In this document: one piece after another, positions 31,786-50,085 of the stretch | Layout of the letters: each line of letters starts with the position of its first letter | How positions within the stretch are numbered: the first letter of the stretch is position 1 | Source of the DNA: Streptomyces sp. WP-1 | GTDB lineage: Bacteria; Actinomycetota; Actinomycetes; Streptomycetales; Streptomycetaceae | Reading direction: 5' to 3' | Length of the DNA: 64,000 nt | Assembly (NCBI RefSeq): GCF_030450125.1 | Contig: NZ_CP123923.1 | Span: 5,704,001 to 5,768,000 of the forward strand | Translations under genes and position numbers: made by a program | Notes under the pieces: model-generated | Seen by the model: only the letters and a program-made list of their open reading frames with translations | The model's database searches: none | Told to the model about the DNA's origin: nothing

Positions 31786-32790
31786 GTGGTCCCCGCGCCT
31801 GCGGGGGTGGTCCCGCAGCGAGAACCCCGTCATCATGGCGTCCGCAGTGGTCCCCGCGCCTGCGGGGGTGGTCCCCGCGCTGCAGGGCCCACAGGGCGCC
31901 GAGCAGGGTGGTCCCCGCGCCTGCGGGGGTGGTCCCCAGCCCGGTCAGGGTGAGGGTTCCGGTGACATGTGGTCCCCGCGCCTGCGGGGGTGGTCCCAGA
32001 AGTTTTTCCAGGTCGTCGTTCGAGGCGTCGTGGTCCCCGCGCCTGCGGGGGTGGTCCCCTCACCGGCACCAACGCGAATTTCAGTGTCAAGTGGTCCCCG
32101 CGCCTGCGGGGGTGGTCCCTCCCTGTACTGCCTGGACGACCCGTCCCGGACGGTGGTCCCCGCGCCTGCGGGGGTGGTCCCATGCCGTACAGACGCGGGG
32201 CCCCGGACAGCGAGTGGTCCCCGCGCCTGCGGGGGTGGTCCCTCCCGAGGTGTCTCACCCCATCGGTGAGGGCGGTGGTCCCCGCGCCTGCGGGGGTGGT
32301 CCCCACTCCGTGACCTCCGCGTGGTCCCACAGGCGGTGGTCCCCGCGCCTGCGGGGGTGGTCCCGACACCCGGCCGTACGGTGCCGGGCAGCCCCAGTGG
32401 TCCCCGCGCCTGCGGGGGTGGTCCCGCCGCGGCTGAGGGCGGAAAGGGCGGCGAAGAGTGGTCCCCGCGCCTGCGGGGGTGGTCCCGTGCTGTTCACCCC
32501 GCGCCCGGTCTTCCACCGGTGGTCCCCGCGCCTGCGGGGGTGGTCCCACGACGGCATGACTCCTCCGCCCCTTGGAGACGTGGTCCCCGCGCCTGCGGGG
32601 GTGGTCCCTGGCGGCGGACCGGCTGAACGTGACCGAGGAGGTGGTCCCCGCGCCTGCGGGGGTGGTCCCGTCTGCCCGCGCCACCAGTCGCCCGCCTTCT
32701 CGTGCTCCCCGCCTCTGCGGGGTGGGTCCCAAGCGCAGTGCACCGACCCTTGTCGCGCCAGGGTGATCCTTGCGCCTGCGGAGTTGTCCC
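31786..32790 (+). CRISPR. CRISPR array 1, type I-E repeats, 17 repeats / 16 spacers
   Basis: Fifteen intact 29-base repeats start at 31786 and recur every 61 bases (62 once, a 33-base spacer at 32120-32152); other spacers are 32 bases. The repeat opens GTGGTCCCCGCGCC and closes TGCGGGGGTGGTCCC, with a CCCCGC/GCGGGG stem typical of type I-E crRNA handles. Two further repeats at 32702-32730 and 32763-32790 are increasingly degenerate, marking the leader-distal end, so transcription is left to right. Spacers are all different. The array is 6 kb from the cas genes, which are on the opposite strand. Confidence 0.98.
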
Positions 32791-38507: not shown

Positions 38508-38779
38508 GGGGGCTACCCCGCATGCGCGGGGACCACTCCCCCTGGACTCAGCGCTAGTTGGGCGGATGGGACCACCCCCGCATGCGCGGGGACCACCTGT
38601 GCGGTGGTCCGGTTCTTCGGCATGGCTGGGGACCACCCCCGCATGCGCGGGGACCACGGGGCCGCGTCACCTCAGAGCAGCGTGAACCGGGGACCACCCC
38701 CGCATGCGCGGGGACCACGACGAGGACGGCCAGGTCCCGACGGTCGGCGCGGGACCACCCCCGCATGCGCGGGGACCAC
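38508..38779 (-). CRISPR. CRISPR array 2, type I-E repeats, 5 repeats / 4 spacers
   Basis: On the plus strand the 29-base repeat opens GGGACCACCCCCGC and closes ATGCGCGGGGACCAC, at 38568, 38629, 38690 and 38751; a degenerate copy at 38508-38536 marks the leader-distal end. Spacers are 31-32 bases. Read on the minus strand the repeat equals that of array 1 except for C to A at position 14. The leader faces right, towards cas2, so the array is oriented like the cas operon and starts about 105 bases past the cas2 stop. Read-through from the operon could contribute to its transcription. Confidence 0.95.
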
Positions 38780-38866
38780 AGTTCCTGAGCTGGGGATTTA
38801 GTTGGTTGGGTTACAGGGTGTGCCCCACTTTCAGAGAAACGGGCATTTCGGGCTTTCAGGCTAATC
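38780..38866 (-). promoter_or_regulatory. CRISPR leader of array 2
   Basis: Read on the minus strand this stretch contains CCCGAAATG and ends CCCCAGCTCAGGAACT directly at the first repeat. The last 16 bases match the other two leaders except for one base; the rest is diverged and AT-richer. It fills the gap between cas2 and array 2. Confidence 0.7.
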
Positions 38867-38883: not shown

Positions 38884-39243
38884 TCAGGAGTTACCGAAGC
38901 GGCGTCTCTTGGCGGCCTTGCTCCAGCCCTGGCGCGGAGGTGACGGCGAGTTCGTGGTGGGTGGGGAGTGGGGTGAGGGGCGTTTGAGGAGGACGAGGCC
39001 TTCGTGGTCGGTGGGATGCCAGGCGTGTTCGTGAGTCGCGAAGGTGAAGCCCTGTTCGTTGTCCGTCTGGTACGCGAGCAGGGCGCGCCCTTTGCCGCGG
39101 TACTGGCGGACCTCCTCCCACAGGATGTCGCGTACCCGGGCCGAGGGTGAGCCCAGGAAGACGCCGGGCGAGACTTCCAGCAGCCAGCGGGTCAGGAAGC
39201 CCCGCAGGCCCGGTGGGCAGTTGGCGAGGACGATGACCGTCAC
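38884..39243 (-). CDS. cas2e: CRISPR-associated endonuclease Cas2 (type I-E, CT1978 family)
   Basis: A 119-aa Cas2e that forms the central dimer of the Cas1-Cas2 spacer integration complex. Family landmarks are the start MTVIVLANCPPGLRGFLTRW, LEVSPGVFLGSPSARVRDIL, the segment YRGKGRALLAYQTDNEQGF and the Trp-His pair of HAWHPTDHEGLVLLKRP. A basic Pro/Ser-rich tail follows residue ~90. ATG 39243 overlaps the cas1 stop by four bases. Confidence 0.95.
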   Translation of the reverse strand: MTVIVLANCPPGLRGFLTRWLLEVSPGVFLGSPSARVRDILWEEVRQYRGKGRALLAYQTDNEQGFTFATHEHAWHPTDHEGLVLLKRPSPHSPPTTNSPSPPRQGWSKAAKRRRFGNS

Positions 39244-40202
39244 CAGAGGGGCTCCTCGCCAGCGGCACCGTCATAGTTGCGGCCGGCTTCGACGAGCCGG
39301 TCCCCGTCCGACTGGAGACTCACCCGATCGGCCGTCCCCCGGGGCTCGGCGAGGCCGGTCTGCCCGAGAAGCAGCTCTTTGATGTCCCGTACGCAACGGT
39401 CGAGCAGACCGGTGGAGTTGATGCGGTCGCGCAGCGCCCGGCGGGTGCGCGTCGCCACATCCTCCTCGCCCTCGGCGGCCGCGTCGAACGCGGCCGGGAT
39501 CCCGATCTCCGTCTTGTAGAGATCGGCGATGTCCAGGACGAACGAGCGCTCATGCCCGGAGTGCACGAAGCCCAGCCCCGGCGCACAGCCGAGCGCCGCC
39601 ACCACGGCGTGGGCCACTCCGTACATGCACTGCGCGGACGCGGTCACGGCCTGATTGGCCGCATCTCCCGCGGCGAAGTCGCCATGATGGTAATCACGCC
39701 GCCGCCAGGAGACCCCGGTACGGGCCGATTCGCGGCGGTAACACTCCTTCACCCGCCGGCCCTCCATACTGAGGAGTTCCTGCCGGGTGTGGCCGGACGG
39801 ATCGTCCTCGGGAAAGCGCATCCGGTACATGGCCCGGGCGACATCGAGCCGAGTACGACGATTCGCCCAGGCCGTCGCCTGTGCCTCGACGAGGTGCGAG
39901 GAGCGGGTGAGGGCTCGTCCGCCCGCGTAGAAACGCACTCCCTGCTCACCGACCCACACCACTGCGGCCCCGCATTCCCCGAGCACGGACATCGCCTGGT
40001 GGGTCAGCCGGGTTCCGGGGCCGAGGAGAAGCGTCCCGATGGTCGCGGACGGGATGTGGGTGACCCCGTCCGTGTCCGTCGCGGTGATCGCGTTGTCCTC
40101 CCGGTGAACCGTGCAGCGTTCCAGGTAGATGAAGGAGACCCGGTCACCGACCCGGGTGAGTTCCCGAGGTGAGGATGCGCCCCGGCGGCTGACGGTGGTC
40201 AT
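39240..40202 (-). CDS. cas1e: CRISPR-associated integrase Cas1 (type I-E)
   Basis: A 320-aa Cas1e, the metal-dependent integrase that inserts new spacers at the leader end. The three catalytic positions appear intact: Glu in LLSMEGRRVKECYRR, His in GLGFVHSGHERS and Asp in FVLDIADLYKTE. The N-terminal beta-domain is VSFIYLERCTVHREDNAITA. ATG at 40202 overlaps the cas6 stop by four bases; the open frame extends to 40787, but that part is antisense-frame noise within cas6. Confidence 0.96.
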   Translation of the reverse strand: MTTVSRRGASSPRELTRVGDRVSFIYLERCTVHREDNAITATDTDGVTHIPSATIGTLLLGPGTRLTHQAMSVLGECGAAVVWVGEQGVRFYAGGRALTRSSHLVEAQATAWANRRTRLDVARAMYRMRFPEDDPSGHTRQELLSMEGRRVKECYRRESARTGVSWRRRDYHHGDFAAGDAANQAVTASAQCMYGVAHAVVAALGCAPGLGFVHSGHERSFVLDIADLYKTEIGIPAAFDAAAEGEEDVATRTRRALRDRINSTGLLDRCVRDIKELLLGQTGLAEPRGTADRVSLQSDGDRLVEAGRNYDGAAGEEPLW

Positions 40203-40927
40203 GACGCGCGCACGGGCGCGAGGGTCATCAGCCCGCAGCCGTACGCCTTGGCCTTGCCCAACCCGTGCGTGAGAGTACGGCGGAAGACCTCGGCGTCCGT
40301 GACGCGGAGCCGGCCGTCGAAGGTGACGCGGGTGAAGTCGACCTGCCGCCGACTGCGGTGTGCCACGCCCTCGAACTTGCCGAATTGAGTGGGCGTCCTG
40401 TCGTGCACGACGACTTCGTGCTCGCTGCCGTGCTCGGTCAGCCGACGTTCGGCGGGGACGCGCAGCACCTCGAAACCGGCCCGCTGCTGCCGGTCGAGCA
40501 GCCAGCCGATCTGATGCCGCGGGGTGATGTGCGCGGCCCGTTTCGTCGGTGTCTCCCTGGAGTCCTGTGGCCTGCGGATGTAGTGCACCGGATTCGCGGT
40601 GAGCCGGAATCCCCAGGTGCTGTCGACGGCGAGACGGTCGAGCAGCCCCTGGTAGTCGAAGGTCGTCCAGCCCGGCTGCTCGGCGCTCGGCCACCCCGCC
40701 TGTTCCACGAGATGAGTGAGGTCGGGGCGGAGCGGACTGACGATGAACAGGTCGGCGCGTCCGGCGGCGGCCGGGTCCACTCGCCACAGGACCCGCGGTC
40801 CGCCGTCACCGCGAGGCGGAGCCTCGGGGAAGGACATGTTCACGGCTCCGTGCATGAAGTGCGGTGATCCGAGCAACCGACGAGCGCCGGGCCGGGCGGT
40901 GTTGATACGGAAACGGGTCAGGTACAT
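40199..40927 (-). CDS. cas6e: Pre-crRNA endoribonuclease Cas6e (CasE/Cse3)
   Basis: A 242-aa Cas6e that cuts pre-crRNA at the repeat hairpin and stays on the 3' handle within Cascade. It has the typical start MYLTRFRINTARPGARRLLG, a His in SPHFMHGAVNMSFP matching the catalytic His region of CasE, and the C-terminal Gly-rich loop LTHGLGKAKAYGCGLMTL. The repeat stem CCCCGC/GCGGGG found in all three arrays is its expected substrate. The start overlaps the cas5 stop by one base. Confidence 0.95.
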   Translation of the reverse strand: MYLTRFRINTARPGARRLLGSPHFMHGAVNMSFPEAPPRGDGGPRVLWRVDPAAAGRADLFIVSPLRPDLTHLVEQAGWPSAEQPGWTTFDYQGLLDRLAVDSTWGFRLTANPVHYIRRPQDSRETPTKRAAHITPRHQIGWLLDRQQRAGFEVLRVPAERRLTEHGSEHEVVVHDRTPTQFGKFEGVAHRSRRQVDFTRVTFDGRLRVTDAEVFRRTLTHGLGKAKAYGCGLMTLAPVRAS

Positions 40928-41745
40928 CAGCTGTTCCTCGGACGGTGCTCTGCCGTGCTGGTGCTCGCGGAGGGATCGAGGGAGCGGAGGAGGACGGTCG
41001 GGTCGTGCTCGGGGGCGGGAGCGCCGTCGGACGAGTGCCGCCGGGGTTCGGTGAGGGAGGTGACCACGCCGCGCAGCCCGTACTGCCGATGACGGGGGTC
41101 GAAACTCACCGGGGTGTCCCTGAGGGACAGATGAGGGAGCTCGCCCGGTGGACAGTCGAGCAGCAGATCCACGGCTACCTCGGGCGGGGGGCCGTTCGGG
41201 TCCGGTCCTCCGTACCCGGTCCGGCCGTACGCCTGGGCGGCCTGTCCGATGCGCTTGCGGTACCAGGACGCCGCCTGCCAGGGCGCGGCCCGCAGCGCGT
41301 CCTCCAGGCCGGGGCCCGAAAAGGGCCGGCCCATGTCGAGAGGGCGGGACGGGGGACAGGAGCGCCGGCCGAGGTACGGAAGGAAATGTGGGGCACGCAC
41401 GGCCTCGTACAGACGGTTCAGCAGCACGGCGTCCCCCTCGACCCCTGCGACGAAAACCGCGTCGGCGAGATAGAACCGTTCGGACAAAGGCATCGCCTTG
41501 CCGGAGTCCCCGTGGTGGGCGGTGTGGAAGTCCCGCAGCCGGGAGCCGGGCTGGTCGATGCGTACGCCGAACCGCAGTGCGGCCAGGTCGGCGAGGTCCG
41601 CACCGCGGGGGCGCCCTTCGGCGGCCGCGAGCAGCCCGAGCACGCCACTCTTGGTGGGTGCGTTCTCAGTGGTGCGACGGGCGAACCGGGCGGCCGAGCC
41701 CCAGGCTTGCAGCGGGCCCGCCAGCCGCAGCAGCAACACCGTCAT
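40927..41745 (-). CDS. cas5e: Cascade subunit Cas5e (CasD)
   Basis: A 272-aa Cas5e that holds the 5' handle of the crRNA in Cascade. Landmarks are MTVLLLRLAGPLQAWGSAAR, the segment TTENAPTKSGVLGLLAAAEG, RIDQPGSRLRDFHTAHHGD and FLPYLGRRSCPPSRPLDMG. A Ser/Pro-rich hydrophilic tail follows residue ~245. ATG 41745 overlaps the cas7 stop by four bases; the extended frame to 41940 is not family-like. Confidence 0.95.
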   Translation of the reverse strand: MTVLLLRLAGPLQAWGSAARFARRTTENAPTKSGVLGLLAAAEGRPRGADLADLAALRFGVRIDQPGSRLRDFHTAHHGDSGKAMPLSERFYLADAVFVAGVEGDAVLLNRLYEAVRAPHFLPYLGRRSCPPSRPLDMGRPFSGPGLEDALRAAPWQAASWYRKRIGQAAQAYGRTGYGGPDPNGPPPEVAVDLLLDCPPGELPHLSLRDTPVSFDPRHRQYGLRGVVTSLTEPRRHSSDGAPAPEHDPTVLLRSLDPSASTSTAEHRPRNS

Positions 41746-42953
41746 GCGTCCGCTCCGGTGCTCACCCGCGCCGCCACCGCCTCTTGCACCTCCCGTACGA
41801 GGGCGTCCAAGGACACCCGGTGGCCCAGCGGTTCGAGCGCATCCGTCTCGTCGCCCACGCGGAACACCCAGCCGTGCTCCGGAGCCTCGATGCCGTACTG
41901 CTTCTCCAGATCCGGTACATATGCGGCGAGCCTGCGGCAACTCTCCCGGAGGTAGCCACCCTCCGGACCCTGCGGCACCGGCTCCTCGAATGCGCCGACG
42001 AAGCTCACCGGCCGGCGGTCGCGCAGCCGCACGATCACCGCGGAGGGCAGGGTGTGGTTCCCGAAGGTGTTGATCTTCCCCGTCGGGAGGGAGGTGACGA
42101 AGGCGTCCAGAAAAGCCCCGACCGCCTTTTCCACCGGGGCGCTGGGTGCCTCGTCCGTCCGCAGCCCGAGCCCCAGGTTGCGGGTCAACTCGTCCACGTC
42201 CACGGCGGCGTAGCGGTAGAGGGTCGCCGAGTTGAAGTCGATGGTCCCGATCATTCCGGCGCCGGATTCGTCCGCGCCGCTGAGGTCGTCCACGGCGGTG
42301 TAGTAATCGGATTCGATCTCCGACTTGTGCACGCTGATGGCATGAGCTACCTGTGAGGCCGCGTCCACATTGAGGTCGGCGGCATCGGCGACCATGCGTC
42401 CGAAGAGAGCGATGTCCACCGAGTGCCTGGAGTCCACCGACTGCCGGGCCTTGGCCTTGTTCTCCTTGTCCTTCAGATAGGTCTGGAGGACCTTGAGGTC
42501 ACCCTCGGGGCCGCTGCCCTCGATCGTCACCTCGGCGAGGGCGTCCAGCTGCCGGCTGCTCAGGAACATCAGGTACGACGACTCGGGCGCGGCCGATTCC
42601 TCGTCTCCGCTCCTGGCCTTTCGCTTCGGCACCTCGATCTTGATCCCCGTCGCCGTTTTCAGCGTCTCGGCGGCCAACTGGACCGCGACGGGCGCCAACG
42701 ACTCGTTCCGGTCGATGATGCGATCGGCCAGCGCCTCGGCGATCTTCTTCGTACGGACGCCGAGTGCCTCGGGCGGCAGCAGCTTCTCGAAGGCCGTGCG
42801 CGTGGCCCGTTTCCAGGCCTGACTCGACACTCGCGCACGCCGGACCCCGCCGTAGTAGGCCGACTTGGGCGTCCCTGTGTCGTCGCGGTTGAGATTGCTC
42901 GGCGGGACGACGTGAAGGACATGGATGTCGAGGATGGTTCGGGGCATGGTCAT
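41742..42953 (-). CDS. cas7e: Cascade backbone Cas7e (CasC/Cse4)
   Basis: A 403-aa Cas7e, the six-copy backbone subunit that coats the crRNA. The family start is clear (TILDIHVLHVVPPSNLNRDD, then GTPKSAYYGGVRRARVSSQA), as are FGRMVADAADLNVDAASQVA and the NTFGNHTLPSAVI loop. ATG at 42953 is chosen; ATG 42947 (MPRTIL) is two codons later. It lies 40 bases from cse2, the only real gap in the operon. Confidence 0.96.
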   Translation of the reverse strand: MTMPRTILDIHVLHVVPPSNLNRDDTGTPKSAYYGGVRRARVSSQAWKRATRTAFEKLLPPEALGVRTKKIAEALADRIIDRNESLAPVAVQLAAETLKTATGIKIEVPKRKARSGDEESAAPESSYLMFLSSRQLDALAEVTIEGSGPEGDLKVLQTYLKDKENKAKARQSVDSRHSVDIALFGRMVADAADLNVDAASQVAHAISVHKSEIESDYYTAVDDLSGADESGAGMIGTIDFNSATLYRYAAVDVDELTRNLGLGLRTDEAPSAPVEKAVGAFLDAFVTSLPTGKINTFGNHTLPSAVIVRLRDRRPVSFVGAFEEPVPQGPEGGYLRESCRRLAAYVPDLEKQYGIEAPEHGWVFRVGDETDALEPLGHRVSLDALVREVQEAVAARVSTGADA

Positions 42954-42993: not shown

Positions 42994-43848
42994 TCAGTCC
43001 GCGTCCACGGCCGGGAAGGCGGCGGAGGTGGAGGAGTCGGCGGGCGAACCCGTGTCGTCGCCCGGTCCGGTGCCGTCCTCCTCCCGTCGGCCGCTCCGAT
43101 GCACTCGGTGGAAGTCCCGGCCCCAGCGACGCCTGACCTCGACCCGGCCCGTCTCGTACTGCCAGCGGTAGATCTGGTCGGCGAGGTCGCCGTAGTCCAG
43201 TGGAATGCGGGCGCCGCGCAGCAGCAGCACCATCTCGCGCAGCCGGCGGCCCAGCGTCTCCAGATCGGACGACGTCCCGATCCGTACGAACCGCTTGCGC
43301 AGGGCGGCACTCACGTCCTCGACCGGGGTGTACCCGGTGCTCTCCGGCGCCTCCTCGTCTCCGGTCCGCTGCGCGGGGAGGCCGGGTCCCGAGGACTTCG
43401 CCTCGGCCAGTCGCCGTACGGACCGACCCAGCGACCAGCCCGGGACGTGCATCGGCTCGTCCCGCAACGACTGCTGGTGCAACGCCCAGAGCGTCACGGC
43501 GAGATGGACCGCGCGGTCCTCACGGTCCTCGCGCGCCTCCTGCTGCCGCTGTCCTCCCGCCACCAGGTGACGCGTGGGGTCCTCGCCCTCCGCGCTCCTG
43601 CGCTCCCGGAGCTCGGTGAGCGCTTCCACATGGTCGAGCCCCCAGTTGGTGGGCGAGGCGTGGACGTCCCGGCCGACCTCGCGTCGCAACCGTGCCACGG
43701 CGGCCACGGCCGCCGGGCTGTCCTTGCGGTAGCCGCCCTGAAGACGGCTCACCGTGCGCCCGGTGGCCGTCCGGACGAGGGAGGGCGTGTGCTGCTCGCG
43801 GTGTCCCGCGGGACGGTCGGCACCGGCGGTTCCCGTGGTCGTGGTCAT
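42994..43848 (-). CDS. cse2: Cascade small subunit Cse2 (CasB)
   Basis: A 284-aa Cse2, longer than most relatives (about 160-230 aa). The core is recognisable in AAVAAVARLRREVGRDVHAS, then AVHLAVTLWALHQQSLRDEP, LGRSVRRLAEAK and MVLLLRGARIPLDYGDLADQ. Two copies per Cascade contact the non-target strand. Extra length is in the N-terminal hydrophilic lead and a Ser/Asp/Gly-rich tail after residue ~250. ATG 43848 overlaps the stop of the cas3-cse1 gene by four bases. Confidence 0.92.
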   Translation of the reverse strand: MTTTTGTAGADRPAGHREQHTPSLVRTATGRTVSRLQGGYRKDSPAAVAAVARLRREVGRDVHASPTNWGLDHVEALTELRERRSAEGEDPTRHLVAGGQRQQEAREDREDRAVHLAVTLWALHQQSLRDEPMHVPGWSLGRSVRRLAEAKSSGPGLPAQRTGDEEAPESTGYTPVEDVSAALRKRFVRIGTSSDLETLGRRLREMVLLLRGARIPLDYGDLADQIYRWQYETGRVEVRRRWGRDFHRVHRSGRREEDGTGPGDDTGSPADSSTSAAFPAVDAD

Positions 43849-46800
43849 GATGTGCTCCGCGTGAGGTCGTGGCTGTCGGCTTCCGTGCTCGCAGGAAGCG
43901 GACGCGCGGGGCCCGGCCCCTGGGGCGGACCCAGCACCTTGTCGAGCCGGATGAGGAAGAGCTGCTCGGCGCGGCCGGCGTCCATCAGCCGCGTACCGCC
44001 GCCGGGAACGGTGATCAGGCGGCCTTCGTCCGCGGCCGGACCGCTGTCGTCGAGCACCTGTCGGCCGAGTCCGAGCAGATGGCGGCGCACCGCGGTCCGC
44101 CATGCGCGTCGTGCCGTCTCCAGGTCGGGGAAGGACAGCAGACCCTTCAGCCAGGCCCGGTACGGTCCGTCCAAGGTGCCGAAGCCAAGGTCACGGGCGG
44201 CGGTGACGGGCGTCGCGGGGTCCGTACCGGCGGCACGGGCCAGATCACCGGCGAGCCCGCCGAGAGCTTTGACGGCGTCCTCCGCGTCGCGGACGGCGTC
44301 GACCGCCGCCGCGCCGAAGACCGGGTTCGTCTCGTGCAGGGTGATCACGGGCAGGACCACGGAGTCGTCCACGATCTCGTCCACCACCGACTGCTGGGTG
44401 CCGTACGCCGCACCCACGAGACGCAGCCGTACCAGCGTTCCCGGGGGGATCTCGGCGGCGGTGATCACGTGCGTGAACCAACGGGCGATGCCGGAGGACA
44501 GTTCGCGCTCGGGCTCCCCCCGTTTCCCTCCGCCTGGGGCCGGTCCACGGGCCGGGAGCAGAGCGGCAAGCCCCCGCCAGGCCGCTCTGTCCGGGTGGTG
44601 CCGGAGCGGCGTGTAGACGGGGACGCGGCCCTGCTTCTTCTCCTGCGTCTCACTACGCCGCCAACCGGACATCGGCTCGGTGTTCCAGGGAGCGCTCATC
44701 GTGAGCGGGTCGCCGTACCCGAGGACTACGCCCGTCACGGCGCCGTTCTCCGCGTGCAGCCGAATCCGGCGCGACTGCCACGTGTACAGATCCCGGAGCC
44801 CCTGCGGGCGGGCGGCGCCGCCGCTGCCCTCGCGCGGTCCGGCGCCGGGGGCAGCCGCGCGGCGCCATACCGGCATGTCCTGGCCGGTCGAGCCGTCCGC
44901 GCCCCAGCCTTCCACCTCTTGCAGGGCGATCAGGTTGAGCAGCAGGGTCTCGCGGAGTGTGGCGCCCTCGGCGAACACCCCGCCGAGACTGCCCAGCGAA
45001 CCCACCCCCAAGGGGTAGACCTTTCCCGCCTTGCCCCGGTCGTCGCCCAGCAGGGCCGGTTTGATCCCGGAGGTGTCGAAGGCGTGTGCGTGCACCAGCC
45101 ACCGGGCGGCCTCCGCGTACGACAGACAGTCGACGCCGGGACGGCGCATCGAGAACAGGGGCTCGCCCACAGGGACGTCCGCGACGATCCGGCTCAGCGG
45201 CGCGATCTCGTTCTTCGCGGTCCTCAGGCCGGCGACCTGGTAGAACGGCCGGTCCGTGGCGAACAGATCGAAACGGTCCCGGTGCGCCGCGAGGTATTCG
45301 GGAACGGCGGCAAAGGGGTCGGCCGACAGCCACAGATCCTCCCACTCCTCCACCTCCGCCGGGCCGTCCAGAGCGTCGTACAGGATCGCGAGGAGCAGCC
45401 GTAAGATCGCGATCTCCTGGGTGGGCACATCTCCCACCAGTCCCCGCAGGGAGTCGGCCTGCTCGAAGAGCCCGAGCATGGAGACGACATCGGTCGTCCC
45501 GTCCCCGCGCTGCACCGGGAGCCACGGCTCGGTGACCAGATCGAACGAGATCGGCCCCGACGTCGCCATGGTCCTCCGGCTCACCACCTCGACCACCTCG
45601 GCCGATCGCTCACCATGCTCATCCTGGCTGCCCGCTTCCCCCGCTTGTTCCTCACCGGAACCGCCCGCCGCTCGTTCCTCGCCGCTCCGTGCGATCGCGG
45701 GCGCGTCAGCAGACGTGACCCGCAGTCCGTCGGTGCGGCTGTAGGCGAGTACGAAGCCTGCCAGATGGGTCTGACAATCCGGGTCCAGAACGATAATCAG
45801 CTCACCAGCCAGCCAAGGACACTCCTTTACCTGCCAGGCAGGGACCAGAAATTGCTCAAGTTCGGCAATGGTTCGGTCGATCATCCAGCGCTTGCTGAAA
45901 CGGCCCGGCAGCGTGAGAGCACTCGCCGCCACCGCCTCGCAGGCCCGGCGACCGGGCACGAAGTCGACCGGCAGATCCAGACCACCCCGCGGGCCGTCCG
46001 GGCCGTCGTCGAGCCATGGCACGGTCGTCAGACGACCGTCGGCCTGCCGCTGGACGACCAGAACCTCCAGCGTCTCCTCACTGTCGCGTACCTGAGCGCG
46101 CCCCGCGGGGCTGTCGTCCACATCCCCCGCCGCCGCCTCCAGCCACCCGTACACGGGCCGCCCGGCGCGCCGAGCAGGGCCGAGCAGAAAGGTCTCGGCC
46201 TTGTGCCGCTTCTCGTCCAGTAACCGGTCATGCTCGGTACGAGCAGCAGCGAGCCGCTCCGCCCACGCGGCCGGACCGACCGCCCCGTCCCCGTAAACCG
46301 CCTGGACCAATGGGCTGATGGAGCCGGGCAGGCCCAGCGCCCGGCCGTCGAGGTACGGACCGAGCGCGCCCAGCGAACGCAGCAGGGTGTACTCACTGCG
46401 ATAGACCGCACGAGTGCCGTCACCAGGCTGCGGCGGATCCGCCCCCCAGTCCACTCCGGTGACGAGGCAGCGCGCCTGTGCCAGGTGAGCTGGTCGGATC
46501 CGAGTGTGCCGGTGCAGGCGGCCCATCCGTTGCAACAGCAGGTCGATCGGGGCCAGATCTGTGATCAGCAGGTCGAAGTCGATGTCGAGCGACTGTTCAG
46601 CCACCTGGCTGGCGACCACGACATGCCGGTGGGGCCGTTGCCGGCCGTCCGGTCCGAAGCGCCGTACCAGGTCCGCGTCCAGGGCCGCACGGTCGGCGGC
46701 GAGGAAGCGGGAGTGCGCCACGGTGATCGCGTCCTCGCCCAGCCGTGCGCGCAGCACGTCCGCGGCTTCCAGCACCCGGTCCACCGTATTGCGTACGACC

Positions 46801-48638
46801 AACGCGCAGCCGCCCTGGGCGAGTTCGCGCTCAAGCCGGTCGGCCAGCACGGCCAGGTCGTCGTCCGACCGCTCCAGGGCCACCGCGACGTGTCTGCCGG
46901 AAGCGGCGGGAGGGCAGGCGATACGGACCGGGTGTCCAGGGGCCGTGGCGGTGATCAGGGGATAGCCGTCACTGCTCGCCGCGGAGCTCCCGTCAGGGGA
47001 GCCGAAGCCCGAGGAACCGGAGTACGCGGCCACCAGCGCGCGCCTGCGGTCGGCCGGCAACGTCGCCGACAGCAGGACGACCGGAACTCGGTACGCCGCC
47101 AGCCACTCCAGTACCCGGTCCAGATACCGCCCCATGTACGCGTCGTACGCGTGCACCTCGTCGATCACGACGACCTTGCCTGCCACCGCCAGGTGCCGCA
47201 GGGCCAGGTGCCGGCTTTTCAGCCCGGCGAACAGGACTTGGTCGATGGTCCCTACGGCGAAGGAGGCCAGCAGCTGCTTCTTGCGCCCCCGCAGCCACTG
47301 ATGAGCGTGGAATCCGGCCTCCCTGGCCGGCCGGACAGCGCTCTTCTCTCCTCTTTCTTCCTCGCAGCCGTCGAGTTCGACAGCTACGATGTTTCGCCGC
47401 CCTTGGCGCAGTAGTCCCGCCCATACGTGGTTGAGAGCGGCTTTGGCGTGAGCGAGTACGACGGAACGCCGGCCGTCTTCGCCTTCTTCCCCCTCGGGCA
47501 GGTGCTTCAGCCAGTCCAGGACCCGCGGGAACATGGCGTCCCCTGTCGCCCGAGTGGGCAGCGCCACGAGCACTCCACCGGCGCCCGATCGGGCCGCGAG
47601 GACCTCTGCCGCGGCCAGTGCCGCCTCGGTCTTGCCCTCGCCCATGGGTGCCTCGATCACCAGCATGCCCGGCGCGGGCATGCTGCGGGCCATCCGCACG
47701 GCCTCGGCCTGGACCGGCCTGATGACCGCGTTCTCCAGGCCGGGGAACCGGCTTCGGAGCAACTCCTCGGCGGTTCCTCCCGGTTCACGGGGGGCCCAAG
47801 GGCGGGGCAGATCGAGCCCGGCCCAGGCCGCGGTGAGCCGGCGCCGCTCGCCCTGGGGGCCAAGGGGCTGCCAGGTTTCGGGATCGTAGGGGAACAGCTC
47901 GGCCGAACTCGCGATCCAGTCCGAGAGGATCACGACGGCCGTCAAGGCGATCTGTGCCGGCTGGGGCAGCCTGACCCCGGTCCACTCCGGAAGCCGGTCC
48001 GCCGCCCCCGCCGAAGCGGCGCACAGGTCCATCAACTCGAACTGCACCCCGCGCCAGACCGCTTCGCTCGGTCCGTGGTGCCGCATCAGATGAGGACGCA
48101 GTTGCAGATCGTGGATGCGCGGGTGATCGGGGTACGTGCCGTGGTGGCCGCCCACGACGACCGCGAACTGCCCGGACACCCGGCTGCGGAGCCCGTACCG
48201 CTCGGCCATCCACTCCTGCACCAGCAACTGGCTGGCCAGCCCGTGCGGCGCGATCCGCCGGTCCTGCCCGAACTCGCGGTCGCTCGGCATGTCGAGTCCC
48301 TCGTCACGCATCCGCCCGGCCAGGGCCTCGACCTGACATGCGAAGGCCGGGGTCGCCTTGCCCACGTCGTGCACACCGGCGAGAAACACAACGAGCTTCC
48401 GGGCATCCGCGTCCCCTGCGGGCAACGCGTCGGCCACCAACTCCTTGACGGACCGCGGAACCCACTGCTCCCACAGCCGCCCCGCGACAGCCGCGCTGTC
48501 GGCCATGTGTCGCCACAGGGGGAGCCAACCACCGGCTCTCTGGTCGTGCTTGGCCCAGGCAGATCGGGTGGGGGCGGACAACTGGCCGGTGGCGAAGACG
48601 ACTTCTACGCCGGGCGGCCCGGATTCCGCGTCGGTCAT
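43845..48638 (-). CDS. cas3-cse1: Cas3-Cse1 (Cas8e) fusion: Cascade large subunit joined to helicase-nuclease
   Basis: One uninterrupted frame of 1597 codons. Residues ~20-270 are the HD nuclease (HD in FLAGVHDVGKATPAF at 88-94, HH in VVGGHHGTYP). Residues ~300-760 are the SF2 helicase: Walker A APMGEGKT (332-337), DEVH (493-496), SAT (524-526), motif VI QRMGRLHRH (703-711). After a Glu/Gly/Ser-rich linker (~985-1020), residues 1024-1597 are Cse1, starting MATSGPISFDLVTEPWLPV with QADSLRGLVGDVPTQEIAIL next. All key Cas3 residues are present, so both parts look functional. Tethering Cas3 to the subunit that recruits it would couple target binding to degradation. First gene of the operon; ATG 48638 has GGAAGGGAGAG upstream. 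Rare natural Cas3-CasA fusions are known in actinobacteria. Confidence 0.95.
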   Translation of the reverse strand: MTDAESGPPGVEVVFATGQLSAPTRSAWAKHDQRAGGWLPLWRHMADSAAVAGRLWEQWVPRSVKELVADALPAGDADARKLVVFLAGVHDVGKATPAFACQVEALAGRMRDEGLDMPSDREFGQDRRIAPHGLASQLLVQEWMAERYGLRSRVSGQFAVVVGGHHGTYPDHPRIHDLQLRPHLMRHHGPSEAVWRGVQFELMDLCAASAGAADRLPEWTGVRLPQPAQIALTAVVILSDWIASSAELFPYDPETWQPLGPQGERRRLTAAWAGLDLPRPWAPREPGGTAEELLRSRFPGLENAVIRPVQAEAVRMARSMPAPGMLVIEAPMGEGKTEAALAAAEVLAARSGAGGVLVALPTRATGDAMFPRVLDWLKHLPEGEEGEDGRRSVVLAHAKAALNHVWAGLLRQGRRNIVAVELDGCEEERGEKSAVRPAREAGFHAHQWLRGRKKQLLASFAVGTIDQVLFAGLKSRHLALRHLAVAGKVVVIDEVHAYDAYMGRYLDRVLEWLAAYRVPVVLLSATLPADRRRALVAAYSGSSGFGSPDGSSAASSDGYPLITATAPGHPVRIACPPAASGRHVAVALERSDDDLAVLADRLERELAQGGCALVVRNTVDRVLEAADVLRARLGEDAITVAHSRFLAADRAALDADLVRRFGPDGRQRPHRHVVVASQVAEQSLDIDFDLLITDLAPIDLLLQRMGRLHRHTRIRPAHLAQARCLVTGVDWGADPPQPGDGTRAVYRSEYTLLRSLGALGPYLDGRALGLPGSISPLVQAVYGDGAVGPAAWAERLAAARTEHDRLLDEKRHKAETFLLGPARRAGRPVYGWLEAAAGDVDDSPAGRAQVRDSEETLEVLVVQRQADGRLTTVPWLDDGPDGPRGGLDLPVDFVPGRRACEAVAASALTLPGRFSKRWMIDRTIAELEQFLVPAWQVKECPWLAGELIIVLDPDCQTHLAGFVLAYSRTDGLRVTSADAPAIARSGEERAAGGSGEEQAGEAGSQDEHGERSAEVVEVVSRRTMATSGPISFDLVTEPWLPVQRGDGTTDVVSMLGLFEQADSLRGLVGDVPTQEIAILRLLLAILYDALDGPAEVEEWEDLWLSADPFAAVPEYLAAHRDRFDLFATDRPFYQVAGLRTAKNEIAPLSRIVADVPVGEPLFSMRRPGVDCLSYAEAARWLVHAHAFDTSGIKPALLGDDRGKAGKVYPLGVGSLGSLGGVFAEGATLRETLLLNLIALQEVEGWGADGSTGQDMPVWRRAAAPGAGPREGSGGAARPQGLRDLYTWQSRRIRLHAENGAVTGVVLGYGDPLTMSAPWNTEPMSGWRRSETQEKKQGRVPVYTPLRHHPDRAAWRGLAALLPARGPAPGGGKRGEPERELSSGIARWFTHVITAAEIPPGTLVRLRLVGAAYGTQQSVVDEIVDDSVVLPVITLHETNPVFGAAAVDAVRDAEDAVKALGGLAGDLARAAGTDPATPVTAARDLGFGTLDGPYRAWLKGLLSFPDLETARRAWRTAVRRHLLGLGRQVLDDSGPAADEGRLITVPGGGTRLMDAGRAEQLFLIRLDKVLGPPQGPGPARPLPASTEADSHDLTRSTS
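45567..45577 (-). promoter_or_regulatory. Internal GGAGG and ATG that could initiate free Cse1
   Basis: On the minus strand GGAGG (45577-45573) precedes ATG 45569-45567 by three bases, in frame, exactly where stand-alone Cse1 proteins begin (MATSGPISFDLVTEPW). The spacing is shorter than ideal. If used, the gene would yield a separate 574-aa Cse1 besides the fusion. Confidence 0.4.
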
Positions 48639-49292: not shown

Positions 49293-49992
49293 GGGATCAC
49301 CCCCGCAGGCGCGGGGCCCACGTTCACGTCGCCGCGCTGGCGGGGCGGGGGCAGGGACCACCCCGCAGGCGCGGGGACCACACCAGGCGGGCCGCGGCGG
49401 CGAGGAACGCCGTGGGACTACCCCCGCAGGCGCGGGGACCACGCTTCGATCGGGTCCAGTCCGAGCCGCTGCTCGGGACTACCCCCGCAGGCGCGGAGAC
49501 CATACGTCGTCTCGGTCACGTCGCCTCCTGGTGGCAGGGACTACCCCCGCAGGCGCGGGGACCACATGAGCTTCTGTGCGGCCGTGCCCGTGATGCCGGG
49601 ACTACCCCCGCAGGCGCGGGGACCACCTGGCGCGACGACGGAGGCCGCCCGATGAGCAGGGACTACCCCCGCAGGCGCGGGGGCCACAGGACCGGTATGG
49701 CTCCGGCTGGGCCCCGCTTGGGACTACCCCCGCAGGCGCGGGGACCACCCTTTCCCAGGAGACGGCCCCTGACCAGGTGGGGGACTACCCCCGCAGGCGC
49801 GGGGACCACTGGCTCATCGAGGTCAGCGACGCCGCCCGGGAGGGACTACCCCCGCAGGCGCGGGGACCACGCGGGCCGAGAGGACCACATGTTCGCATCG
49901 CTGGGACTACCCCCGCAGGCGCGGGGACCACCAGTGCCCGGAGACCCGGGGGCCGGTGATCCTGGGACTACCCCCGCAGGCGCGGGGACCAC
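49293..49992 (-). CRISPR. CRISPR array 3, type I-E repeats, at least 12 repeats / 11 spacers
   Basis: On the plus strand the 29-base repeat opens GGGACTACCCCCGC and closes AGGCGCGGGGACCAC. Copies start at 49293, 49354, 49414, 49475, 49537, 49598, 49659, 49720, 49781, 49842, 49903 and 49964; spacers are 32-33 bases. The three leftmost copies drift (TC for CT, 28 bases, terminal CAT), and 49232-49260 is a still more eroded copy, so the leader is on the right and transcription leftward. Read on the minus strand it equals array 1 except G to A at position 24. It borders the promoter side of the cas operon. Confidence 0.97.
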
Positions 49993-50085
49993 AGTTCTTG
50001 AGCTGGGGGTTTGGTGGGGTGGGGAGGTGGGATTCCTTACTTCTCGGGAAGGGGACATTTCGGTTCTTCCGGCTGGTCGTGCGGT
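49993..50085 (-). promoter_or_regulatory. CRISPR leader of array 3
   Basis: Read on the minus strand it contains GAAGAACCGAAATGTCCCC, CCCGAGAAGTAAGGAATC and ends CCCCCAGCTCAAGAACT at the first repeat. It aligns with the array 1 leader over about 85 bases with scattered mismatches, showing the two arrays descend from one another or from one ancestor. Confidence 0.8.

Follow-up and report, generated by a model that had tools for sequence, protein, structure and literature searches.

The window analysed here, a 64,000-nucleotide stretch of Streptomyces sp. WP-1 (contig NZ_CP123923.1, positions 5,704,001 to 5,768,000), carries on its minus strand a single gene in which cas3 and cse1 are fused. 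This gene is the first of a complete type I-E operon flanked on either side by arrays of clustered regularly interspaced short palindromic repeats (CRISPR), and the whole 7.62 Mb contig gave a single Cse1 match and a single Cas3_HD match, both of which are the fused gene. We describe the gene, its relatives, and candidate translation starts ahead of its Cse1 part, from which free Cse1 may be produced as well. Its parts are as follows.

43845..48638, minus strand: cas3-cse1 fused gene, 1597 codons (ATG 48638-48636, stop 43847-43845)
45717..48638, minus strand: Cas3 part, residues 1-974, with HD nuclease, superfamily 2 (SF2) helicase and Cas3 C-terminal domain
45546..45716, minus strand: linker, residues 975-1031 (57 residues), rich in Glu, Gly, Ser and Ala
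43848..45545, minus strand: Cse1 (Cas8e) part, residues 1032-1597
45592-45599, minus strand: Shine-Dalgarno (SD)-like stretch GAGGTGGT, which would serve the candidate GTG 45587/45584
45582..45587, minus strand: candidate internal starts GTG GTG (residues 1018 and 1019; GTG 45587 and 45584), duplex energy to the anti-SD sequence -10.7 kcal/mol
45567..45569, minus strand: candidate internal start ATG (residue 1024), duplex energy -7.4 kcal/mol

Cas3 is followed by Cse1 in one uninterrupted frame, as a preliminary description of this DNA, which gave no strand, had proposed. Pfam places Cas3_HD at residues 28-249 (7e-53), DEAD at 307-379, the Cas3-like C-terminal helicase domain at 608-713, Cas3_C at 851-972, and Cse1 at 1033-1522 (7e-107), and NCBIfam concurs in the order Cas3_HD, SF2 helicase, Cas3_C, Cse1. 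The order given earlier (HD nuclease, helicase, a Glu/Gly/Ser-rich linker, and a full Cse1) is thus borne out, as is the statement that all catalytic motifs are intact: HD was located at residue 90, HH at 165, GEGKT at 333, DEVH at 493, SAT at 524, and QRMGR at 703. The nearest solved chains are the Cas3 helicases 4q2c and 6c66 (chain G) for the Cas3 part and Cse1 3wvo for residues 1024-1569.

An error of sequencing or assembly that masks a stop between two ordinary genes can be given practically no weight. The state of such a gene can hinge on one base, since the split locus L061 differs from its fused neighbours by an apparent single base, whether real or an error. Against this, protein P0002, which is 91% identical over the Cse1 region and represents 24 member sequences (90% cluster), is likewise 1597 amino acids long, the host genome was assembled as one contig, and 17 of the first 81 loci compared, and 44 of 161 overall, are fused. 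Because fusion is shared by P0002 and by many diverged relatives, we do not regard the fusion as an assembly artefact, and a hidden stop in the window gene, for which a check had been advised, is very unlikely.

Nor is the fusion rare, as had been supposed. When the Cse1 region was used as query against database proteins of about 878-2795 amino acids, at least 292 proteins matched among 7989 scored candidates (part of the candidates being scored); the 120 listed contain Cse1 and Cas3 C-terminal domains, some of them truncated at the Cas3 end, and the named proteins among the matches listed are all from Streptomyces except for one from Mangrovactinospora. Genomes with a Cse1 match numbered at least 150 of 392 in an even sample of the genus, 100 of 297 in the family, 73 of 394 in the class, and 21 of 396 in the phylum, where frames longer than 1500 amino acids occurred only in three genomes of the window's own genus. 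The window was compared with the best 80 loci of the genus sample, 50 high-scoring loci of the family sample, and 30 chosen loci of the class sample. Fused genes are found at 44 of these 161 loci, which are a selection and not a census (the window itself, 16 of 80, 25 of 50, and 2 of 30, respectively). Among named loci, 41 of the best 80 of 242 confirmed relatives are fused; they belong to Streptomyces, Actinacidiphila, and Mangrovactinospora, and include S. griseus NCTC13033 (L278), a species already mentioned as having a fusion.

At all 44 fused loci of the first comparison the fused gene is accompanied by matches to cse2, cas7, cas5, and cas6, and at 43 of them by a cas1 match. Across 68 fused genes, HD.[GAS]K is present in every one (a relaxed pattern; a stricter version matched 54), SAT and QRxGR in 67, DE[V/A/T/C]HA in 65, and DEIH in two more. 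The fused gene of L173 (G699:C48), which comes from another family and sits on a long branch, lacks DExH, SAT, and QRxGR alike, and the fetched stretch gave no cas1 or cas2 match; this is perhaps a decayed or repurposed effector. At the split loci L155 and L169 the best cas3 frame has just 199 and 596 codons, though the matches span most of Cas3, and cas3 there looks frame-broken while the Cascade genes persist. Four genomes (G349, G206, G023, and G265) have two type I-E systems each, one fused and one of a distant split kind.

In the window gene the candidate internal starts lie near the end of the linker. By the duplex measure used for the candidate starts listed above, the fused gene's own start, ATG 48638, which is preceded by the SD-like aggaagggag, scores -9.1 kcal/mol, and the starts presumed for the remaining cas genes score -1.8 to -8.4. 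The candidate ATG at 45569 has an SD-like GGAGG at 45573-45577, and in the phmmer alignment its codon, residue 1024, falls opposite residue 4 in the solved Cse1 chain 3wvo_A.

For fused genes as a group, we examined the 20 codons that precede the 'FDL' of Cse1 and scored each in-frame ATG or GTG by the duplex energy of its upstream sequence with the 16S end (the anti-SD letters were found in the genome of this strain at five 16S-end-like sites). The best score of each gene was compared with synonymous shuffles and expressed as a mid-rank, other segments of the same genes serving as controls. Fused genes tend to keep an in-frame ATG or GTG with a good SD match beyond these shuffle controls. In the 44 fused genes the mean best energy before Cse1 was -8.76 kcal/mol, compared with -0.39 to -6.12 in 59 other segments; the mean mid-rank was 0.246, the mean of all 60 segments being 0.510 (standard deviation 0.067) and the next lowest 0.325. 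The identical measure gave a mean of -8.52 kcal/mol in split relatives (n=77). In a second set of 24 fused genes, all below 95% identity with the first set and among themselves, the signal was replicated more weakly, with a mid-rank of 0.303 that was the lowest of 54 segments (the 53 others averaged 0.515, standard deviation 0.077). When sequences were clustered, the mid-rank was below 0.5 in 37 of 44 clusters at 80% identity and in 11 of 13 at 70% identity (sign p 0.011). An in-frame start at -6 kcal/mol or better is present in 52 of the 68 fused genes.

Two other tests were tried and are not relied on here. The first, based on codon-order shuffles, gave a mean rank of 0.247 and was set aside; because it placed the borders of the linker wrongly in several genes (including L042, L132, L141, L142, L146, L152, L172, and L173), we relied on fixed 20-codon segments and synonymous shuffles. 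The second used out-of-frame starts as the control and strongly favoured frame 0; codon bias makes this control unfair, and it was given little weight. Local RNA folding is likewise not counted as support: structure is weak at the Cse1 start whether the genes are fused or split, perhaps simply on account of the conserved FDL..PWL codons.

Several observations weigh against a second product. The window gene alone is unremarkable, its shuffle rank of 0.27-0.33 not being significant, and its ATG 45569 has a short SD spacing of 3 nt. In 16 of the 68 fused genes no in-frame ATG or GTG in the 20 codons reaches -6 kcal/mol, and the GTG of L133 has no SD match. The second set had a mean energy of -7.42 kcal/mol, weaker than the -8.66 of 22 split genes, and 4 of its 24 genes ranked at or below 0.05, a count that reached 5 in one control segment. 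Immediately upstream, RNA structure is stronger in fused genes (about -11 to -12 kcal/mol) than in split ones (-8.6 to -10.7), and all p-values are approximate because the sequences share ancestry. The internal signal might, moreover, be a relic of the split state.

Followed through, this last point would mean that only full-length Cas3-Cse1 is made, that the internal SD and start are idle leftovers, and that each finished Cascade carries one Cas3. Such leftovers could be inherited from the tightly coupled cas3/cse1 junctions of split relatives; re-splits seem to occur, the signal of the window gene is not significant when taken alone, and an artificial fusion made by Westra is described as functional in E. 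coli in the part of a review that was covered (PMC3890593). We nevertheless consider this unlikely, although it deserves to be kept in mind, for two reasons. Genes with long linkers (n=28), whose linkers differ widely, hold the signal beside Cse1, with a mid-rank of 0.249, and not in the next segment upstream, where it is 0.518. The shuffle test, in addition, looks at which codons are used to encode a fixed protein, a choice that drift should make random.

The SD-like stretch is located at a domain boundary, and, as such stretches are said to slow the ribosome, a pause there could let Cas3 fold ahead of Cse1 without any start site being involved. This use of the stretch is improbable, since an in-frame start codon follows the strongest SD in 19.8 of 68 genes when 7.2 are expected, whereas the control segments show the opposite (48.2 of 818, with 64.3 expected). 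Valine codons in the linkers are also shifted to GTG (117 of 155, versus 1012 of 2343 in the Cse1 body), which a pause would not need. Harder still to credit is a protease that cuts the chain in the linker to release separate Cas3 and Cse1; the linkers are indeed variable, from about 16 to 83 residues, and many are of low complexity, but many have just 16-20 residues and the 44 listed show, by eye only, no conserved cleavage motif.

The two genes would be easily joined or parted, because the Cse1 domain starts -20 to 60 nt from the cas3 stop in 67 of 77 split relatives. A tree of Cse1 alone (129 rows, 121 of them at 41% identity or more and 8 others) needs 9 changes of label, at least 7 of which are forced by well-supported branches; the base of the group is unresolved in it and the fused genes do not come out as one clade, which counts against a single origin. 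A joined tree of Cas3 and Cse1 has 113 rows, 4 having been dropped for a broken or partial Cas3 and the distant L186 and L190-L193 having been left out beforehand, and its chosen outgroup is not one side of a branch. It needs 8 changes and gathers 43 of the 44 fused rows in one clade of 49 (Shimodaira-Hasegawa-like approximate likelihood ratio test, SH-aLRT, 98). The remaining fused row, L172, belongs to another family and is placed apart; L173, of the same family, lies inside the clade, its long branch making the placement unsure. Six split rows are also found within the clade: L033, L050, L058, L061, L076, and L131. At least two of these, L061 and L076, are nested deep among fused groups, and L076 retains linker-like residues at its Cas3 end and has an ATGA junction, while L050, at the base of the clade, may never have been fused. 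One old fusion followed by several re-splits is probably the simplest reading, several fusions being the alternative. The fused clade looks old, diverse, and mostly of the Streptomycetaceae.

Downstream and upstream of the fused gene, the remainder of the locus is as follows.

42994..43848, minus strand: cse2 (casB), its ATG overlapping the stop of the fused gene (ATGA)
41742..42953, minus strand: cas7 (cse4/casC), start at 42953 or 42947
40927..41745, minus strand: cas5e, start at 41745 (ATG) or 41739 (GTG)
40199..40927, minus strand: cas6e, by Pfam and NCBIfam
39240..40202, minus strand: cas1e, start inferred at ATG 40202, the open reading frame being open to 40787
38884..39243, minus strand: cas2e, by NCBIfam
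38508..38779, minus strand: CRISPR array with 5 copies of the repeat, downstream of cas2
49293..49992, minus strand: CRISPR array with 12 copies of the repeat, upstream of the fused gene

The assignment to type I-E rests on Cse1 and Cse2 with Cas7, Cas5, and Cas6e, on a Cas3 that bears the motifs of an HD nuclease and of an SF2 helicase, and on Cas1e, Cas2e, and arrays with repeats of about 29 nt (length judged by eye) at 60-62-nt spacing. The flanks of the last repeats of both operon arrays (38780-38810 and about 49993-50023) resemble each other, at 88% across 60 nt with the repeat counted in, as would be expected of a shared leader. A third array at 31791-32662, on the plus strand and so opposite to the operon, lies about 6 kb from the end of cas2 and has the same repeat core, with 15 exact copies of a 17-nt core; a single isolated copy of the core was found outside the window at G000:C1:5799065. 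Spacer searches covered the array at 49293-49992, one of the three, and found no phage matches to it. The plasmid search with this array matched 101 records; the 20 matches listed, at 66-69% identity, look like other arrays with the same repeat, and in 30 records the best place is at 90% identity or more, for which repeat or spacer matches are both possible. The plasmid place H5 overlaps no annotated gene.

Taken together, these results incline us, with some reserve, to an explanation that combines a tethered Cas3-Cse1, free Cse1 as a second product, and probably a single fusion with later re-splits. Going by what is known of type I-E systems, the Cse1 part would fill the place of the large subunit in Cascade, read the protospacer-adjacent motif and the R-loop, and bring its own Cas3 on a flexible tether; because Cas3 is tethered to Cse1, recruitment of the nuclease from solution would not be needed. 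Ribosomes would also initiate within the linker, at GTG 45587/45584 or at ATG 45569, to give free Cse1 of normal length, and cells making both would therefore hold a mix of Cas3-tethered and Cas3-free Cascade. The fusion would have arisen within this I-E lineage, probably on a single occasion, when the stop between tightly coupled cas3 and cse1 was lost. Whether fused cas3-cse1 genes are in general two-product genes, in which the selected strength of an internal ribosome-binding site sets the share of Cascade that carries the nuclease, we judge to be an evenly balanced proposition. The permanently Cas3-loaded Cascade of the preliminary description is doubtful, because a start site from which free Cse1 could be supplied is retained by fused genes taken as a group. 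Its term 'self-contained' applies to nuclease recruitment only, Cse2, Cas7, Cas5, and Cas6 being separate genes.

If only the fusion were made, each Cascade would always be armed, which is relevant to the way these bacteria avoid self-damage and to compact designs for genome editing. If free Cse1 were also made, a dosage problem would be solved within one gene. How much Cascade is armed relative to unarmed (for interference as against surveillance or priming) would then be measurable, and tunable via one start site. Type I-E would then also offer a case in which a whole large subunit is translated from an internal start, preserved across an old, diverse clade. The fused, split, and re-split relatives provide natural controls.

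The original report of natural Cas3-CasA fusions is said to be that of Westra in 2012. The principle is, as had been allowed, not new: the parts covered of two reviews from 2013 (PMC3727216, PMC3890593) name natural Cas3-Cse1 (Cas3-CasA) fusions in type I-E. The window gene, judged by its sequence, is a further case of this known kind because such fusions are already in print, and its locus shares their subunits and operon type; in the text covered, those reviews state the existence of the fusions only, and not their spread, age, re-splitting, or an internal start. The covered text of a 2025 review of CRISPR in actinomycetes (PMC12231136) contains no word starting with 'fus', and a search that stopped short of most subscription journals and preprints turned up no publication describing an internal start for Cse1 within fused genes. 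According to the parts of the sources covered, the Cas3-Cse1 fusion engineered from the E. coli proteins (Westra 2012) was functional in that species (PMC3890593), and a cas3-cse1 fusion called naturally occurring has been used in yeast (PMC9241507). Both indicate that a tethered Cas3 supports interference, as is proposed for the window fusion, but the first is artificial and the second was supplied alongside normal Cascade. Split type I-E operons of Streptomyces (that of S. avermitilis, PMC4762764, and those of close split relatives) share the gene order and the Cse1 family with the window locus and differ in having separate cas3 and cse1, the cas3 of S. avermitilis being described in the part covered as lying in its own operon. 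A second product would be a probable extra layer beyond the known fusions, and its closest parallel in the text covered is the internal in-frame translation of Cas11 from cas8 or cas10 in types I-B, I-C, and I-D (PMC11899642, citing McBride 2020). There, as proposed here from a candidate start, two proteins come from one gene for the Cascade large subunit by way of an internal start; the Cas11 systems yield a small subunit, whereas the window gene would yield a whole Cse1 from a fused nuclease gene of type I-E.

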